This document shows, piece by piece, positions 22,711 to 34,426 of a stretch of 39,329 nt of DNA. Source of the DNA: Ectocarpus siliculosus (Eukaryota > Sar > Phaeophyceae > Ectocarpales > Ectocarpaceae); contig FN649728.1 in the NCBI GenBank assembly GCA_000310025.1, forward strand, positions 4,579,647 through 4,618,975, in the 5' to 3' direction. Both the position numbers and the translations under genes were made by a program. The notes beneath the pieces were generated by a model. The model did no database searches. It saw nothing but the letters and a program-made list of their open reading frames with translations, and was not told the DNA's origin. Positions within the stretch are counted from its first letter, which is position 1. The number at the start of each line of letters is the position of its first letter.

Positions 22711-23424
22711 TTTTTGAAAAGGGACGACAACAACAACAACAACGACGACGACGACGATAACAACAACGGCCTCTGCAGTGTTTCATAGGTTCAGATAATA
22801 TTCGATTATTTTTTCGGATCAGAACCAAACCGAACGCGGCGATTCCTCTGCCGGTTCGCCTAAAAACCGTCAAATGTTTGGTGGCGAAATACGACGACTT
22901 TACCACTTTGCTAGTGCGACCAGGAGTTGAGTAAGACGCCTGGTGTGTTCACCATTCGTGTGCACCACACCACACGGCATGCATCTCGTAAATAAGAGTG
23001 GCTGAGAGGTTCTTCTGACCATAAACTTTGACGCACGCTTCGGGAAAGTACCAGCATCTACAGAGCCTTTGTTAATAGGGCACAGGCGGCCGGGCGGGCA
23101 AAACATACAGCAGTACGGGCGACAGAGTCGTGTTGTTCAGTTTAGGACAAAAAACAGTTTACAGGAGCCAATAGACCAAAGCATACAGTGGCGGTAGGGT
23201 GCTGCTACTGAGGAGGAAGTAGTGTGGGGTTGGCGGAAATGCATCGGCGTCGGCGGCATTGTTGTCTACGCCGAGGGAAGCGCAAAACTCACCACCAAAC
23301 CATGATGGGGGCGGCGGCTTATGGTGGGAGCAGCAGCAGAATCTCTTTTGCTGAAGGAATGAGTTTTATTGGTCCGCGAGGAGAAGACCTGCCCAATGTT
23401 ATTCGTGGAAGAAGCAAGGCTCGA
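22711..23424. other. Upstream region of the propeller-TPR gene
   Basis: A CAACAACAACAACGACGACGACG microsatellite lies near 22727-22760. The rest is the likely promoter and 5' UTR of the following gene. In-frame ATG codons at 23239, 23302 and 23359 precede the chosen start at 23425, so the 5' UTR could be shorter and the protein longer. Confidence 0.4.
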
Positions 23425-26400
23425 ATGACCCGGAAGAGTAACAGCAGGGTGACCGTGTCAGCCACAGCAGTGCTGGGCGTGCTGGTTGGTTTGCTCACGG
23501 CCGAGGGAGCTTTGGCGCAGCAAGTAGGAAACCTAACGGGTGAGAGTGATGTCAAGGATTCAGCTTCTCCATAAGAAATGAATGCAGCAAGGAGCATGAT
23601 CATACGACCTTCGACACTTTGAGAACCGATGAATGTGAACACTCCTCTCACTACTGTATGTGGTCAGAGACTTACAACAGTAAATAGTTGTGCTGCCTGC
23701 CCCAAGGGGGCGTCGTCCAAACAGGTTGGAAATCCAGTGGGCCAGAGCTATGTCCACGTAGAGCTTGCCGGAGAAGGCTTGCCATGCGTCTCCACAGTAG
23801 CTTTTGGTCACACATGAACTTGTTAGATTATGCATACAAACACAGAAAGGCTTAAGCGAGGAACTTTGGCGCGAGGCAACAAGGCAAAGACCACCAACAA
23901 CGTCCTTAATGCTTTGAAGTTGCTACCGTAGGAAGGACCGTATGCCTTCACACAATGAAAGTTCATCGCGTAATGTCGGGGGACATCGCTAAGTTGCCGT
24001 GAAAAGAAATATGAGTAGATTCGCCGGAATAACTTCTTGAAACACAACAGGAGAGGCCGGAATATCGTAAATATTGCCAAAACCGTTTCTTGGCCGCAGG
24101 TTCCCCGTTTTCCAGGGCCATTTCTCACAAAGCAAGCTCTCAATTTTCAGCGCGGTCAGCGAAAAGCCCAGAGCCTACAGAGACAATAAAGACGTCATCC
24201 CACAAGAAACCCATGTCCCCGGCCTTCATGAACAAATGTGAATTCGACCCACGACTACGGACAGGCCACACGATAGGGTCGTGCTACACAAGCAGCATCT
24301 GCCGATGTAGATTACCCTTACTGCGGTGTAGTACGGTATTGATTTATTGGAGAGACAGAGCTGACCCTTCACGAGGAATTGATGTTGCACTATATCAATC
24401 TAAGAACGGAGCGTCTGATCGCATGAAATCAGGACTACATTACCGAGGACAACAGGCAGTAGAGTACCAGCGTCGCTCAAAGCCGTAAGCGCGCAAATAG
24501 GCAACACCAAACTACAGTATTAGTCGTAAGGTTGCGCGTACTCTCTTTTTCGATGCTAGCAGATGCTGCATTTGTCCGGCGGGTTTCGATTCCTCTCGAT
24601 TTCAACAAAGACGTTCCGTTGGCTTTGCTCGCAGTACCCACCCGTAGGAGCCCCAGCGATACGCTAGACGTCATCGGCCCCGCTGCTGCCCGCTGATCCG
24701 TCTATCTACACGCGGAATACTCACTCGTTTTGCATGGAACCCCTGAATGCGCGTTTCTCGTTATTTTCCCACGAAGGCCTAAGTCGCGGATACTCCGTGA
24801 ACTTGACCGGGTCGTCACTAAACAACCCCTTCGACGACACGTCTTTCAACCCGGCCTCGGCTATCGGGGTAAGCGATTGCTGCAGGGATTCCGCCGAACC
24901 AGGAACCCCGACCGGTTTTGACTGGAGACTGGCTTTGATTCGGTCGCACTTGGTAGAAACGCAAGCAGTGAGATCGTAGTGAGAGAGAAAAACACAAGCA
25001 TCTATTCGCTCGTCTTCGGTAATACTTGTAGAGCGAGTTCATTTATGTCGATATCCTCTTCGTCGTACTGCGCTGGCCGAGAAGAGCTTCGACAGAAACA
25101 AATTTTGTCTCGTTACACAGCTTCTTATCTCTCATTGTTCGGTCGCACGGAGGGATTTCACTGAAACTATCAAATCCCAACGCGTAGCAGCGACGTTCGG
25201 TGTAGCGGCACCCTTGGTTGATGGATATGGCCGGAAGAATCCCACCTTTGGCTTGACCGGCAATATGAATGCACTTGACAAAACCTTTGATGCCACGGAC
25301 CTCTGGATTGTGCGTGCTTTCTCTCCCAATTTATTAAAGGTGTCCGCGGATGGGACAGGCGTGTACGTCGGGGGGGAGCTGGGCGGGCTGATCCACCTGG
25401 CGAGGAGCCCGGAAGACGGATCGCTCACAATGACCAGGGCTTGGGCTGCTTCGGATTTTGACGAAGCTCTTCAGGTACACGTAACTTTGAGAGCCGAGGC
25501 GATGGCACAGTGTACTTTTCTATGTGCCGCTCAACATTGTCTGTCTTGTCATCTGGCAGGACACATGCACCAGAGCTGGTATTGTCTAAATAGTTCTTAT
25601 GAAGAACTACGTAGGATGCTCAAACGATGTCTCCAAAAGTGAATGCCTAGCGTGAGCTCCAAAGCACGTAAGGTTAACCACAGTCGCCCGCACAGTCAAG
25701 TCGTAGAACCTGCACGTGGAGTGCTCTGAAGCCCATCAAAAGAGACGGAGTGCCATGTCGGGCGAACACGCTGTGTTTCTGTAGTCCTCATCTACAACCA
25801 AGCGTTCGCCCAGTGGACTCATGGCGAAAGTGGACTATTGCCCGTGGCTAGATGTTTCTCTCTAGACCCAAAGACGTTACCAAGAACGTTGCCAGAGTTC
25901 CCAAGCAGTGTCCAAGCATTTTTTTCTTTCATCATTCGACAATGTAGCACAAACCAGTGTCAAGACCGACACACGCGTATTTCTTTGGTCCCCCCCGGCA
26001 ACGATCCTCTCTGCCTTATCGTACCTGACATGTTTTTCTCTCGTAGTCCGTGGAGCAAATCGTTGTGACGCCGGACGGATCGAAGCTGATCACGCTCGGC
26101 AGCCGGGGGCTCGGCAGGGGGACATTCGGCGTCTTCAGGTGGGTGCAGCCAGCGAAGCCGCGACCTTGGTTTGACAAGTCAAGAGCACTGTCGAGGCCTC
26201 GTCGGCACCGCCCGCTCAGCAGTCCGTCAGTGTTACTTGTGGTGGAGGTCAAACTGTCAGAGATCCCAGTACAGCGAAGTTGCATCGTGGCTCTTCGTTC
26301 AAGTTGTCTAATGATGCGCTATGGGCAAACAGAGGGTGCGTACACTCTTTTTTTATCATAGCGGCACGTCGTCCTCCCTCCGAACCACCTATCTCCCCCG

Positions 26401-28809
26401 AAACGTTGCGCTCCGGTACGTGCGTTCGTGTACAGCATTTCCGCCGACGGTGACCTGCAGCTCCTGCAGGAGGATGACCACCGTGGGATCATCCGAGCAG
26501 GTTTTCCTGACTCTAGTTCCAGGGTAAGTGTTGTTGCTTTGTTGTTGTTTTGCTGTTGTTTTGCTGTTGTTTTGCTATTGTTGCTGTTGTTGTTGCACTT
26601 GCTCTTGTTCTTTCTGTTTTCTTCATACCAACACCTAACCCATACCCAGTGTTCGGCCAATACTCTGGACGCATGGATGTCGGATTGGTTTCCAAGCTGG
26701 AATACGACCCGTCCGTGGTATACAGCGGCCAAAACGCCATCACGATTATGATGCGGGCGACCCTTCAAATTCTGTTTCGACTCCTTTTCTTGAAAACAGG
26801 ACCTATACGCGATAGACGACGACCGAAGCGTGCTCACCCACTACACTTACGACGGTTCACGGTTCGTCGTGTCTCAGGTGATTGTTGTGCTGTGTGCTGC
26901 TGCTGTCGCCTTCACCGTACCATGTTACGTTCCAGCAACCTCTGCCGATCGTATGTACGTGAGGTGCGAAGGTCTGACAACAAACAAGGCACGCACGCAA
27001 CATCTACGTTCGGCGTACACACGGCTCGGACAAGTATTGGTATCGTCGGCCCTACGCCTATAATACAAGCAACGAGGACTTCTACTATTTCCATGAAGCG
27101 GATGTAGTAGTACCGGTCGCATCATGTCTTGCGCATCACAAGCGTCTTGGGTAGTAATGTGCCCTTCCACGCAACCCCCCTTATCCTCCTTTCTCCAACA
27201 CAAGCCACACTGACCCATGCATTCTCCCCGTTCAACAGCAACCCAACTCAACATTAACAGCTGAGCCGGTCCGCTGGCGTGCATTCCCGTGATGGAGTAC
27301 GGGCGGTCTATGCTATTTAAATTTTGACCTGGAAACTACTACGCCACCACCGAAGCTTAACCTTTCGTCTTCTTGTTTTTCTTACCTCTTTTTCGCGTCC
27401 TTTGTGAATCATTCTGTGCGAAGCTCGTCATCAAGAAAGTGTTGCTTCGGTCGACGTTTCCTACTCTTGGTGAAAGTGTCGATTTTCGTGTTGTCACCCT
27501 CCGGTTACGTAAGTCAAACCTTCTAAAACAGCACCACACGCTAGGAAAGCATGCCCTCGCACCCCCCGGACTCAAAATTCCCGAACCCGGAAGTATCCAT
27601 CATCAAGGTGTGTGCGCATGAGCATGCTCGTCGCGTGGTGTGGAACGTCGTGCGAGCGGGAGCCGCCGCATTTTCCGCCCGAGCCAACCCCACAACACGG
27701 GGGCGACATCGAAATACAGCCAAATCGGAATTTATTATGAACCCCTTTCGAGACTATAATCAAATGCGTACCACTAAGATGCTCCCCCTCCCCGGCTGAA
27801 CTAAACATGCACGCCGCACAAACGCGATTTGCCGATTCCATCTTCTTCATTCAGACGGTGGGCGGTTTCACGTGCCTGTACGGGCTGGGCGTCGCCCCGG
27901 ACGGCGCGAACGTGTACGTGGCCGACGACTGCCTCTACACCGTCACCAACTTCCGCCGCGATCCGGACACGGGCAGCCTGACGTTCCAGGACGAGCTAAG
28001 CGGTGACCCCCGCAACGGCGACGGCCTGGGCTGCCTCAAGTCCCTGTCCTTCACGGAAGACGGGGTGAGCAAAGGAGAGACGGAGAAAAGGCATATTGGG
28101 GGTCATGTAGATGCACGAAAGCACCCGTTGATTCTCCATCTCAACCTCACCCTACTTCTTGGTCTCCATCTCATCCATTCGTCACATTCTGGCCGCCCGC
28201 CCCGTTGGGGGGCAGGGGGCCAATCCTTTGCCCCTGATCACATAGATTCGCAAGCACGCCGCCACAGGCACGAAGGCGCAAAAAACATCAATGTCACTGG
28301 ACGACTTCCGCCCGAAGAGTAGCAATACATGGTTTATGAGTAACTCGAAGAGTATCACATATACCACCGATGCGAACATCCGTTGCTATCGTGTGCCTCA
28401 ATGGAGCTGCAAATCAAAGCGAGCACATCACGAAAAACGAACCCGACAACTGTGGTACCTCCGCCCTAACTTTCACACCTACAATAATTCGTCTCCGCGC
28501 ACATCACGTCCTGATATGCCCGCCCCCTCTTCGCTGTTCCTGTGTTTGCATGTGAAAGGCTTGGGTCGTTGGGCTGGACTCCTGCGACGACGTGATCTCG
28601 ATTCTCAAGAGAGACTTGGACACGGGCACGCTAACGCCGACCACGCTCATAAACACCGACAACCCGGACGGAAATACAATAAACATCGACAAGGTAGAGA
28701 TTGGATGTTTCTGCTCCTCGTTTCGAGCGTGCATTGATCCGAACAAGCCACGGGGTGAAGCTCGCCTTCGCTGAAGCCAAGACGCATGTGCCTGTTCCGG
28801 CTGCATCCG

Positions 28810-28876
<67 letters not shown>

Positions 28877-31800
28877 GATATTGTACAGTTGTCGCCCGTG
28901 TCATCGAGAAAATAATGCGTGTAACGCGCACGCTTTCCGCAGTGTTACCTAGAAACTCTACACAAGCTCTATGCACCTCATGTATACAATCATTGTCAGC
29001 TTTTTCCAACACGTTGCAAGCAACCTTGCTCGGCTCACGGCCCATGCAGCAGGCGGGGTGTAGTTAGGGTTGCCAGGACGATTTGATGTACGCTGTGAGG
29101 TAAGGACCTGTGGTCCATCCATCTAGCAACGCGTGGCCAATGCCCAGTGAGCGAATCAAGCCACCCAGCGAGTACGCGCCCCCTACAGTCCCGCGCTTGC
29201 TTACTACGTGTGTGCGAATATGTGTTTTTTAATTGTCTGCAGACATGGTCCGCTCTGGTCGTTTCTGATGGCTTGGGGGACATCTACGTCGCAGGTGAGA
29301 AGAAGTCATCACGAACTACTGTCGACGTAATCGTGGGATGTTGTTGGTCATTGTCAGTCGCTTCGGTTCTCGCCCTAGGCCGGCCACGTACACGGCTGTT
29401 TCTAGCAGAAGAACCGTTCGTCTTGTGCGATGCGTGTGTACCGGACGCGTGGTGGTAAAGCAACGCCACCGAAGAATCGGCGCCTTTTGGTATCCGCGGG
29501 AAACCCGCAAGAATTCAGGAGGCGCTCCTTCCTTGTCTCGACTGTAGGAGTGTATTCAATCAGCGACAAAAGAAAGGATTCCTTCCCAGTCTCACTTGGG
29601 TGAGGGAAAAGGAGAGGGGGAGAAGGGGGGGTGACAACAACAAAGAGATGGGGGGGAGAACGAGAGAGAGAGAGAGAGAAACACGACAGTCCCCGCAACA
29701 CAATCGGTTGGAGGGGTATTGTTGGGAAGGAGGAGACCACATGAATTTGCCCGCACCACGCCTGAGCTTGAACTACATCATGCCTCACCGTGGAGTTGTG
29801 TCCGAGCCATATTGCCTCGAAACGGTGGTGTGCTAGTTCCTGTGAGGGCGCGATTTTGGGATCATCATCACGAGCTTGTGAGAGCTCTATGCCCAGACAC
29901 ACTACTCTGGCCTTTGAAGCGGGGGGTACTGTAGGCACTAGTCCTGGAGCACACACGGAAACGCAACATTGACGCATGCTGCCTTAAACCAGAGCTGTGC
30001 CCTTCCCGGCGGACAGAGGTCACGTTCAGCAACTCGTGGGAAACAGAAAGTGTTTTACCCTTTGCTAGACCTACCGCAGCAAGAAGAGAGCAACGCAACC
30101 CACCGCACGATCCACGATCTGTACCTTGCCCTCCCGTACGAGTTGGTCGGATCGGAAGACCCCGTACCAACCGCAAACAACAAACAGACCCAGTGCCAAG
30201 AAATCCCTCCGAAACACAAAAACGACACCCAACGATTCTCATTCTGTCTGCAGACTGGTCGGATAGCAAAATTCTCTGGGTTCGAGCCGACTTCGGGGTT
30301 GGCGGCGACGGTTCCGTCATCAGCACCAACTGGTTCTCGCTGAGCTTCAAGCCGAGCACCCTCATCGCGTCGCCCGACCTTCAAACCGTGTACGTCGCCA
30401 ACAAGGTGAGACCTTTCTTATTGTGGAATCATGACGACCAGGGAACCTACTAAGTAACACCCGACCACGGCCGAATGACCTGCGGTTTGGTCGCTTGCAC
30501 GGTACTGATAGCAAGTCCGTACGAGGACGAAGGCGTCCTCTGGTGCTATGTACGTAGTTTAGGCAACCTTACACTCTGTGATTTGTTATCGTATTTTTGT
30601 GCTATGCGTGAGCGCCGCCTCACGGCCGTGCAACAACAACAGCGAAAGGACCAACCATGCTGCTGCTGCTGCCGTGTCCTCTCTCTTGCTGCCGTTCCAC
30701 CACCACGTCCGCCAGGAGAACGACGTTTGGGAAGGAGGTGCTTACCCGAGGGTGGCGGTGCCGACGCCGGATTCAGACGGGTCAGGCACGTCCGCCGTGA
30801 ACGTTACCCTTGCCGTGGCCCTGTCCGTGTCCCTCGTTGCCGCGATCGTGATCGCCGGAGTGGCGGCAAAGTTCATCCAAAGAAAGGTACGCCAACAGAA
30901 TCGCCAGCTTCCCGTTTCTGTCTGTCAGCCGTTTCACGATGATTGGGTTCGGAGTGTAGTTGTGCGGGGATTTGGGCGGGGTGGTGCTGTAGAAATGCGT
31001 AACGTCGGACCGACCGTTCGACGTAGTTGGCGGCAATTCACAGTGCATGCATCGCCACTCCCGAGTTCCGGTCGTCATCCATTATTTTAAAGTACCGCAG
31101 GGCAGTTCTCAGTTTCGAAACGGGACATTGAGAAGCAAGGCATACGGCAGAGTATCACGGACGAAGACATGAAGCAAATATTTGTGGTGGCGGTACCATC
31201 CGCGTAGATACCACCCGTTCTCGTGAGCATGCATGCCTCCTCGGCCGTACAATTCGTCCCGGTACACGGTTTCTATCCAAGAAACACCACGTAACAACGC
31301 GTCGTACAACGCCTCCCGTTCCATTCACGTGTGCATCTATCTATCCAAACGCAAGCATGTCGCGTCCTCCGTTGCACGGATCTCTCTACCGTCCGTCGAT
31401 GTTGTTCCCATTCGCGGTTTTTTTTCCCGCCAACTTGCTGTGATCGCCCGGTTTCGGTTTCGGTTTCCGAAGAGGAATATCAGCATGTACGCCGGCGAGG
31501 AGGAAACCCTTCGGGCGGCGCTGGAGGCCAACCCTAACGATGCTGTGGCGCACAACAACTTGGGGTACCTGATGGAGACGGTCTACAAGGTGACGATGGC
31601 TATTTCCGTGTCTGGCCGACTCAAGAAAAGGGGCGTACATTCGAAAAGGGGGCTGCTCCCGAGAACAACCTACAGAAGCGAAACTGTCGTCAAGAGTCAG
31701 GCAGCACCGGGGGGCGGGAGAGTTCGAGCTTTTCCAGCGGTTATTTCGCCAACGGAAGAAGTGTCAGGACGCAATTGCGCAGATATGAAAAACACTGAAC

Positions 31801-34426
31801 GCTCGGATATAGCCCATGCCCTTGTACCGCCTGCCTGTTGAGCCGCTTGAGGCCGTAGGACCACCGTGCAGTGGTTATTCTTTCTAGAACTGCAACCATC
31901 ACGATGCAAGTGTCCCCACCATTGGGGACAACGATTGGCTCGGTTTTTCTGGCCGATCGCTTTTCTGACACACGATTACCGTCCGCTAAGAAAACCAACC
32001 AAACCGCCGGAAACACCGCAGGACTTTGCGGAGGCAGAAGCCCACTACTCCGAGGCTCTCCGCATCAACCCGCGCGCGGCGTTTGCCCACAACAGCCTGG
32101 GGCACCTTTTGCACCACAGACAGAAGGTGACAAGAACGAGCCGAAGTAGACGTCGAACTGGAACTGATTGCGGGTCTCAGCGGGAGGTTTGACGTACATA
32201 AAATATGTGGTAGAACCTCGGGCTGGGCACGCGACGGCCGTTCTTCCCCCGTCTTGCGACAACCAGAGGCTTTGGTAGTGAAACTTGACATGTTTCGGCT
32301 TCTCTTACTCAAGGCTTGTCTGTTTACTTCCACGATATCACAAGCTGGATCCCCAAGGCAATAGGCTATCGTATTTTTCTTGCGTCTTGCTGGCGCTCTC
32401 ATCCCGAAGAAGCTCGTACCGCCTATCGAACCACCTAAGCCTTCTAGCCTATGGGGCGTCGTTCTAGTTGCCTTCCCAAGAGAATCGTGGCATTAGTGAC
32501 CGTCTGCCGTGATCCCGCCTGAATGACCCCTTGGCGGTGGGGTCCTTCCACAGTCGGAGTGAACCGTCCAGGGGGGAGCGTATTACAGAGCCGGAGATTT
32601 GTCTCGTTTTCGTTAGCAGTGCAGCCCGTGGCAACTCCGTTCAGGAAGGAGTGGTACGAACACTGTCGAGAACAGAAAGAGACCAAGCATTCTGTCGCAC
32701 ACGCAAAGCCCAACCTACCCCCTCCCGCTGCACGCCTTCTTTCTTCGTCCCCGCCGTCAGGACTACGACGCGGCCGAGGAGCACTACCTCAAGGCCATCA
32801 ACCTCCACTGGCGCTCCCCCGACGCGCACTACAACCTCGGGTGCCTCCTGCAGCACCACAAGGGGGACGTGGCGGAGGCCGAGAAGCAGTACCGCCACGC
32901 CATCAAGTGCGATCCAAAGCACGGCATGGCGCAGTACAACCTCGGCTGGGTGCTGGAGAAGGTGAGCCGAGGGGGAGAGGGAGGAGGGAAGCAGTAATTC
33001 ACGACGTTTTTTTGTTTTTTCAGCGGGGGTTGTGTTGCGGGGAACAAGCTGGCCCTGCTGTGGCCCCCTTCAACCTCTCGGTTCTGAGTTGTCCGAACTA
33101 TCTCTGCGCCCCTTGTTGGAGGAGGGTGGTTAGGTGATCGTCAGACCGCGCCCCCTCTATTTTGTACACGGCACACTTTGACGCGAGGTGACTTCGTACC
33201 ATCGGTGTACCGAGAGGCCCATAACACCAGTGAAGCACGCATGACAGCCGTTTTCGAGCGTCCTGCCTAGTACTTCCACGGCATACGTTGTCGCCCAAGT
33301 ACCTGCCCTTCAGGGTAGAGATTCCGAACAATGTGTAAGGTGACGTGGCATGCGCTTCGAGTATTCACGAAGGAAACGAACCAGTGAGCCTCACACTCGT
33401 GCCATTCCCACCAAAACGATTGGTGCTTGTCCAAACGGTGAAGGTAAAGCAAGACTTGAAGGGCGCGGAGGCGTGCTACCGCGCAGCTATCGAGGCCGAC
33501 CCGGAGGACAAGGATGCCGCCCGACGCCTCGCAAAGGTGCCAGAAAACGCGTTATGTTTCTCTCAGTGTTTCCGGGGTTCTGTTGTTGGGTTATCACGAC
33601 CCTGTTACTGCACACAGATGGTGCTATTGGACGATGCGCTTTTGACGCGGACTGCTAGGTTTACGTGTCTCACCTACGCACAACTATGTACATAAGGCAC
33701 ACTTTTGGTGTTCATAGTGGCGCGCACATCGAACGGAAAGAGACGCCATCAGAACCGCCGAATACATATACCATGTGATAGATGACCGATGGCCCTAGAT
33801 TTTGTCGAGATGGCAGCAAAATCGCAAACTTTTTCAACATGGATAAACTTGTTTCGTCGCCGCTTTGGGTTGCCCCTTCTCCGCGACCGACTTGGGCCTG
33901 CCTACGCTACCACAGCTTTGCGACCGATCGAGGTCTCGTCAAGAAACAGTCGCTACACGCTTCGAACTTAATCAGAGTGCCGACGACGGCAACAGTTTGC
34001 CGATCACGGTCATCGGATGAATTTAGGGCGCGAACGCCATTATTTGCGCCTGCCTGTACTGCACCCGTTCCACCCGAAAAAAATGAAGAAAGCATGAAAG
34101 ACCGACTGCCGACACGCACCAGCTAAAGCAGCCTGTTGTTCGCCGACCGACTGGCAGATGTGTTGGCCTCTTTTACCCTCAAAACGGTGTCTGGTTGAGT
34201 AAAAGTGAGGGATGCATGGGGCGCGCACCACGGAACGGAGAAAGCGAATAGTTTCAACAACACAACCACGGCAACCTCTTACAAGGAATATTTGGACGAC
34301 GCCACGGTGGCGGCGACAAAGATTCACGTGCTTCTTGACGTCCACGTCCACCAACGCCTTCTACCAATATCAACCGCCTCGCAGGTGGTGGCACAAATGC
34401 AGGCCGAGGAGGAAGGAAAGCACTGA
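23425..34426 (+). CDS. Predicted receptor-like protein: signal peptide, lactonase-type beta-propeller, TM helix, TPR array
   Basis: Exons joined by splice motif and phase: 23425-23539, 24777-24868, 25121-25474, 26047-26138, 26436-26500, 26650-26717, 26800-26877, 27855-28064, 28559-28693, 29243-29294, 30254-30405, 30716-30886, 31473-31589, 32022-32126, 32761-32961, 33450-33536, 34385-34426. They sum to 2136 nt (711 aa). Residues 1-32 form a signal peptide (core ATAVLGVLVGLLTAEGALAQ). About 130-480 is a YVTN/lactonase-like propeller. About 501-522 is one TM helix followed by KFIQRK. About 530-700 are TPRs. The predicted layout is propeller outside and TPRs in the cytosol, suggesting ligand sensing or adhesion coupled to a TPR scaffold, which is inference. 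Weak points are the start of exon 3 (25085 or 25121), the exon 5-6 join (a stronger GTAAGT lies at 26524 but breaks the frame), and the TM-TPR join, since an ATG at 31485 could start a separate TPR gene. Confidence 0.7.
25121..30405 (+). other. Beta-propeller exons of the receptor-like gene
   Basis: Repeats of the form (V/F)xxDGxxVYVxxxxxxLxxLxRDxxTGxLT recur: KVSADGTGVYVGGELGGLIH (blade 1), VVTPDGSKLITLG (2), DLYAIDDDRSVLTHYTYDG (3), GVAPDGANVYVADDCLYTV with RRDPDTGSLTF (4), SFTEDGAWVVGLDSCDDVIS with KRDLDTGTLTP (5), VVSDGLGDIYVADWSDSKIL (6) and IASPDLQTVYVANKENDVWE (7, ending in the TM exon). Several blades are cut by introns mid-strand (for example DIYVA|DWSDS). Seven blades is my count and blade 3 is the least secure. 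The lactonase-like fold includes enzymes and pure binding proteins, and no catalytic residues can be assigned. Confidence 0.7.
28809..28877 (+). repeat. (GTT)n microsatellite in an intron of the receptor-like gene
   Basis: About 23 perfect GTT/TTG triplets lie in the intron between exons 28559-28693 and 29243-29294. On the opposite strand it would read poly-Gln, but no exon supports that. Confidence 0.95.
30716..30886 (+). other. Transmembrane exon of the receptor-like gene
   Basis: One 57-codon phase-0 exon carries the end of the last blade (ENDVWEGG), a Pro/Asp/Ser/Gly-rich stalk (VPTPDSDGSG), the hydrophobic helix NVTLAVALSVSLVAAIVIAG and a basic stop-transfer end (AAKFIQRK). An N-glycosylation-type NVT stands at the outer edge. 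If the exon were not spliced, the frame would run on to a stop at 31090 and give a single-pass protein without TPRs. Confidence 0.75.
31473..33536 (+). other. TPR exons of the receptor-like gene
   Basis: Four phase-0 exons encode consecutive TPR units: EEETLRAALEANPNDAVAHN with NLGYLME; DFAEAEAHYSEALRINPRAA with HNSLGHLL; DYDAAEEHYLKAINL with AHYNLGCLLQ; DVAEAEKQYRHAIKCDPKHG with YNLGWVLEK; and DLKGAEACYRAAIEADPEDK. Consensus TPR positions (A-x-x-x-Y/H, AL/AI, P at repeat end, N-LG) are clear. About five repeats of 34-37 residues fit a curved peptide-binding array. Exon ends fall after the LGxLL(x)nK segment in each case. Confidence 0.85.

Follow-up and report, generated by a model that had tools for sequence, protein, structure and literature searches.

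The window, by which we mean the whole 39,329-nt stretch of Ectocarpus siliculosus FN649728.1 that was analysed and whose positions are used below, carries on its plus strand an open chain of 17 exons running from an ATG at 23425 to a TGA at 34426. Rebuilt from the raw sequence, this chain encodes 644 residues and is laid out as follows:

23425..23539, plus strand: exon 1, MTRKSNSR-VTVSATAVLGVLVGLLTAEGALA followed by QQ, a signal-like hydrophobic stretch at the N terminus; start codon uncertain
24777-24868, 25340-25474, 26047-26138 and 26436-26523, plus strand: exons 2-5, the N-terminal strand and approximately the first two blades (borders by eye)
26800-26877, 27545-27607, 27855-28064 and 28559-28693, plus strand: exons 6-9, the middle blades, with Cys 228, 247, 281 and 300
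29243-29294 and 30254-30405, plus strand: exons 10-11, the last blades; codon scores near zero
30716..30886, plus strand: exon 12, the stalk, a single predicted transmembrane (TM) helix (residues ~434-455) and basic KFIQRK
30887..31472, plus strand: intron 12, 586 bp, the disputed join; read-through scores as noncoding
31106..31207, plus strand: candidate alternative last exon inside intron 12, a 33-aa short tail, FSVSKRDIEKQGIRQSITDEDMKQIFVVAVPSA and stop
31473-31589, 32022-32126, 32761-32961 and 33450-33536, plus strand: exons 13-16, the TPR array; codon scores 0.23-0.60 bits/codon
34385..34426, plus strand: exon 17, the final residues and TGA

An earlier note on this DNA had described seventeen exons with agreeing phases and a product of 711 residues. 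The open chain from 23425 to 34426 stands, but the agreement of phases is weak evidence for it, because 13 of the 16 introns are in phase 0 (two are in phase 1 and one in phase 2); the 711-residue model, for its part, was not recovered, and beside the 644-residue protein we obtained only variants of 664, 677 and 646 residues. All 16 introns, of 247-1237 bp, have GT-AG borders, an agreement that is built in since we selected every splice site by hand. A codon log-odds model, for which 3446 codons from the same genome served as training set, scores above zero in 15 of the 17 exons and sums to 167 bits, with exons 2 (-0.15) and 7 negative and exons 10 and 11 near zero; the training set included TPR genes and the paralogs L002 and L003 introduced below, so the scores of the TPR exons are somewhat favoured. 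With splice matrices built from 21 other hand-picked sites each, the acceptors of exons 5, 7 and 16 score below zero, that of exon 16 being poor at -8.6.

The three variants concern exons 3, 16 and 17. In-frame starts at 33444 for exon 16 and at 34286 for exon 17 give 646 and 677 residues respectively, the latter by adding 33 residues, and a start of exon 3 at 25188 leaves the chain open at 664 residues when exon 2 is skipped. The longer exon 3 in combination with exon 2 was rejected, being out of frame. The stretch upstream of exon 3 (25188-25339, beginning LTGNMNALDKTFDATD) aligns weakly by tblastn with exon 2 (beginning LTGSSLNNPFDDTSFN), and because of this resemblance the two may be mutually exclusive alternative first-strand exons; the codon score of 25187-25339 is -0.05 and, like exon 2, it does not score as coding. 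All three variants leave the TM helix and the join of 30886 to 31473 untouched. Elsewhere in the window, we saw no extra TPR exons when the TPR part was used as a tblastn query at E<=1, as 12 of the 14 rows fall on modelled exons and the other two lie outside them at 0.59 and 0.78; likewise, none of 10 hand-picked long ORFs has a Pfam family at E<=0.01. The intron between exons 9 and 10 contains a run of 22 TTG triplets (28812-28877).

Turning to the encoded protein, its N-terminal half matches the Pfam Lactonase family (PF10282) at 1.8e-8, with 34.4 bits against a cut-off of 21.7, over residues 234-320, and the SGL family at 3.3e-6, also over the Pfam cut-off, over residues 276-344. We count about seven blade-like segments, number and borders both by eye, so that the approximately seven lactonase/YVTN-like blades proposed earlier are borne out. 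Their repeated motif, SxDG.xVYV, is common to the Lactonase/6-phosphogluconolactonase-like seven-bladed propellers (PF10282; PDB 1ri6, 3hfq and 1l0q), whereas the window propeller differs from these known ones in being joined to a TM helix and a predicted cytosolic array. A profile of three algal proteins matches 1l0q (2e-6), 6igb, 3hfq, 4qrj and 1ri6, albeit from a poor underlying alignment, and phmmer with just the window ectodomain as its query gets no further than E 0.026. Residues 32-430 have a pI of 4.2, four Cys and two N-glycosylation sequons; two further sequons, 433 and 463, lie at the edges of the membrane segment. Rather than bind something, this propeller may be a membrane-held enzyme.

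Membrane segments were judged by hydropathy only. The strongest hydrophobic window comprises residues 436-454 (KD 2.64) and is followed by KFIQRKR, the final R coming from exon 13, just as the earlier claim of one hydrophobic helix with a basic end would have it; outside this region and the N terminus, the best 19-residue window reaches a KD of 1.44. The N-terminal hydrophobic stretch has a KD of 1.82 and ends in ALA. Considering that among the 45,215 stop-free 19-residue windows of the six-frame translation a KD of at least 2.6 is rare (12 runs) and one of at least 1.6 is common (200 runs), the evidence for the TM helix is stronger than that for the signal sequence. By hydropathy, then, the protein has a single TM helix with basic residues toward the predicted cytosolic side, one of the features of a single-pass type I protein.

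The N terminus itself could begin further upstream, as additional in-frame ATGs precede 23425, at 23239, 23302, 23305 and 23359. A start at 23302 or 23305 would make the N-terminal segment an uncleaved signal anchor and give the protein two membrane segments. Judged by the Kozak rule, by which we compared start contexts, ATG 23305 combines an A at -3 with a G at +4, and ATG 23425 has C at -3; moreover, the codon score of 23302-23424 is neutral (-0.002). However, the ALA-QQ end fits a cleaved signal sequence, for which an AxA-like ending is the rule, and we regard an uncleaved anchor as a somewhat doubtful option, weighed here separately from the main reading, with which it is compatible. Indeed, the main reading survives it, because, whichever ATG is used, the propeller would end up on the lumenal side and the TPR array on the cytosolic side.

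C-terminal to the TM helix lie four to five TPRs, which agrees well with the five or so of the earlier account: TPR_17 matches at 5.8e-25 (85.9 bits, four stretches) and TPR_11 at 1.1e-21 (76.7 bits, five stretches), both above their Pfam cut-offs, so that at least three tandem repeats are present. This part (residues 461-644) has a pI of 6.0. Its closest natural solved relative is the TPR region of O-GlcNAc transferase (2e-35), which three engineered consensus TPR proteins outscore, and the likeness would appear to be largely one of TPR consensus; the window protein, unlike O-GlcNAc transferase, is without a glycosyltransferase domain. The TPRs of that enzyme carry an Asn ladder that binds the peptide backbone, and the position-6 Asn found in three of the four helix-A motifs of our array recalls it. 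A carboxylate-clamp TPR, with its Lys5/Asn9 motif, was rejected by eye, both residues being missing from the first complete repeat. The first TPR, again by eye, is without a helix A of its own, and for this reason it is interesting to consider that the TM helix may, with its cytosolic end, fill the position of the missing helix. Exons 13-16 are all phase 0-0 and thereby suited to exon shuffling, though most introns of this gene are in phase 0.

Does this chain represent one gene, or two that happen to be neighbours? Everything hinges on intron 12. The propeller-TM half and the TPR half are, from the sequence, probably joined by a splice of 30886 to 31473, and in our own judgement the odds are about four to one in favour of a single gene over two. 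Donor 30886 is strong, with 8.0 bits, in the top 1.2% of the 2591 GTs in the window. Acceptor 31473 is mediocre, its 3.09 bits being matched or beaten by 19% of the 2413 AGs in the window, and three AGs in the gap score above it, at 31101 (10.29), 30929 (8.79) and 31093 (3.15). Reading through past the donor gives -0.57 bits/codon, as against +0.17 for exon 12 and +0.46 for exon 13; the noncoding set of this main scoring included intron 12, which counts against any tail within that intron, and when intron 12 is dropped from that set the read-through stays negative, at -0.18 to -0.49. An unspliced exon 12, which would stay open to a stop near 31090, was rejected on its intron-like score.

Acceptors in the gap were scored from at least 50 bp after the donor, and their tails were read to a stop only, with no inner exons ending at a donor. 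Scored in this way, 18 phase-0 acceptors have open tails of at least 15 aa, namely 31473 and 17 alternatives that score between -0.58 and +0.04. The frame of 31473, read to its own first stop, reaches only +0.06, because the read runs into intron 13. Amongst the near-zero alternatives, 31106, 31133, 31136 and 31151 share the tail end DEDMKQIFVVAVPSA, whilst 31356 runs into exon 13 in exon 13's own frame. Spacing is another element to consider. Introns average 588 bp in Nemacystus, 530 bp in Cladosiphon and 740 bp in Ectocarpus according to PMC6418280, and PMC12477816 gives Ectocarpus autosomal medians of 524 bp for introns and 1302 bp for intergenic regions, so the 586-bp gap fits an intron better than it fits intergenic space together with UTRs.

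Two genes would mean a propeller-TM protein with a short tail, such as the charged 33-aa one from 31106, followed by a separate cytosolic TPR protein that starts at Met 31485. This Met is in frame and has A at -3, the tail exon at 31106 is open for all of its 33 residues, and acceptor 31473 is merely average, all of which speak in favour of such an arrangement. Yet the codon score of the 31106 tail is close to zero (-0.06) and its acceptor weak (1.78 bits); a 3' UTR, a promoter and a 5' UTR would all have to fit into 586 bp, where the intergenic median just cited is much larger; and a TPR protein starting at 31485 would open, by eye, with a lone TPR helix B. On balance, we hold two genes to be unlikely. 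A single gene with alternative 3' ends, which makes both the full propeller-TM-TPR form and a short-tail decoy, is very improbable: the tail at 31106 is in the top tenth of stop-free intron windows (a fraction of 0.096 of 2799 score at least as high) and 31101, the strongest AG of the gap, would give a tail of 23 aa, but the codon scores of these tails are neutral or negative (-0.06 and -0.28, respectively).

We thus return to one gene joined across intron 12, in which case the product is, with good probability, a single-pass membrane protein with its propeller outside the cytosol and its TPR array inside. The proposal that an extracellular propeller, a TM helix and cytosolic TPRs belong to one gene explains the sequence best. 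Codon and splice-site scores favour the join on balance, and the splice of 30886 to 31473 itself is a probable one.

Are there other proteins of this kind in Ectocarpus? The genome has the stamp of a brown alga, in that EsV_1_7_cys (PF19114), a family expanded in brown algae, matches all 150 scored out of 880 candidates and none in 14 control genomes, a weak control since these are prokaryotes; the long introns make a brown alga likely too. We searched the genome (189 Mb, 492 contigs) with the PF10282 profile and obtained five matches at three places, one of which (L001) was left out of the comparison owing to N in its sequence. The other two are:

C11:1853500-1863400: L002, a Lactonase propeller, a P/S/T-rich stalk, a TM-like helix and a conserved Cys-rich tail
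C48:247500-257000: L003, a Lactonase propeller, a P/S/T-rich stalk, a TM-like helix and a conserved Cys-rich tail

L002 and L003 are 66% identical in their large propeller exon, which matches Lactonase at 1.3e-15 and 1.5e-14, respectively, and 60% identical in their last exon; by eye, each propeller has about seven blades. This last exon alone contains the seventh blade, the stalk, the TM-like helix, basic residues and the tail, and because all of these lie in one exon the step from blade to tail needs no splice inference. Both tails contain the motifs CPAC, CSC, CPHC and CAPC and look zinc-ribbon-like by eye; no Pfam family is above its cut-off in the last exon of L003 (the best is WD40, at 26.7 bits against 27), and with this exon as the query just two matches turn up in the genome at E<=0.1, on C48 and C11. 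Considering these two loci, the Ectocarpus genome does encode Lactonase propellers that are anchored in the membrane and carry a cytosolic module, and here the earlier generalisation that lactonase-type propellers usually stand alone does not apply.

L002 and L003 have in common with the window protein the Lactonase match, the approximately seven blades, the P/S/T-rich stalk, one TM-like helix and basic juxtamembrane residues. On the other hand, they possess a Cys-rich tail, absent from the window protein, in the place where the latter has TPRs, and their propeller is encoded in fewer, longer exons. The window ectodomain is 25 and 30% identical to these two paralogs in a forced, loose alignment, and common descent of the three receptors is therefore unsupported beyond their shared Lactonase family.

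With residues 1-500 as the query, 13 of 13 matches at E<=0.1 are its own locus; with the TPR part, four of five are its own exons, and the fifth is a weak match at C16, the nearest other TPR, around which we saw no propeller in the forward frames. We saw no other gene in the genome that pairs a propeller with TPRs, an absence that is weak because the family searches are insensitive and did not list the window gene either; as this gene, with its short exons, was missed, other short-exon genes of the kind could be missed too. The YVTN family TIGR02276 has no match above the cut-off in the genome and two weak ones, whilst the SGL family PF08450 has five matches, on C18 and C20, and SGL-type propeller exons lie at C18:4097518-4099920 and C20:1699898-1701325. 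Beyond Ectocarpus, viral contigs yielded five candidate stretches and no relatives, and prokaryote genomes two relatives among 174 candidate stretches, both in Chloroflexi/Dehalococcoidia MAGs, at 33 and 24%.

How, then, might such a protein function? We envisage that the N-terminal hydrophobic segment would send it to the ER and the secretory pathway, and that the Lactonase-like propeller, held on a stalk of about 25 residues, would face either the lumen or the cell exterior. A single helix would span the membrane, with KFIQRKR holding the C terminus in the cytosol, as basic residues stay cytosolic under the positive-inside rule. The propeller could bind a ligand or partner, be it a wall polysaccharide, a protein or a lactone-like compound, and the TPR solenoid of four to five repeats could dock a cytosolic partner, thereby recruiting a signalling or trafficking protein. 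The likely role would be recognition in the lumen or at the cell surface, linked to a platform of TPRs on which partners dock, for which we infer ligand, location and function alike. The part in cell-wall sensing or defence that the earlier note put forward would be speculative.

Together with L002 and L003, the window gene suggests a small modular set whose members have had their cytosolic module exchanged, and exon shuffling could have performed the swap. TPR exon shuffling is mentioned for brown algal NB-ARC-TPR genes in PMC11378527. Could these proteins even belong to a brown algal class of modular single-pass receptors, with Lactonase ectodomains and a cytosolic module exchanged via phase-0 exon shuffling, separate from the plant and animal receptor kinases? 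We offer this as a tentative idea, possible and nothing firmer.

Multicellularity arose independently in brown algae, whose means of sensing walls and microbes are largely unknown. Regardless of how such a class fares, the propeller-TM-TPR protein and the two propeller-TM-Cys-rich paralogs provide concrete receptor candidates, in each of which the parts inside and outside are defined and open to testing for ligands and partners.

To conclude, the layout that we propose has counterparts amongst well-known receptors. IRE1/PERK, the plant CRINKLY4/ACR4 proteins and integrin alpha chains all place a propeller, or a domain resembling one, on the non-cytosolic side of a single TM helix and their working part on the cytosolic side. 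The window protein would follow the same order from outside through the membrane to inside, a likeness of layout; however, where the inside part of these proteins is a kinase/RNase or a short tail, ours has TPRs, and no kinase family is present among the 19 Pfam families that match it at E<=1. The brown algal NB-ARC-TPR genes, whose TPR exons are described as shuffled in PMC11378527, resemble the window gene in their possession of TPR exons, and NB-ARC is likewise absent from those 19 families. In the open-licence literature, as judged by titles and the starts of abstracts, we found no architecture that combines a lactonase/YVTN propeller with TPRs or a TM helix. Taken together, these comparisons place the window protein, probably and as far as its sequence can tell, as a variant of the single-pass receptor-like protein, in which a propeller outside and TPRs inside make an unusual combination.
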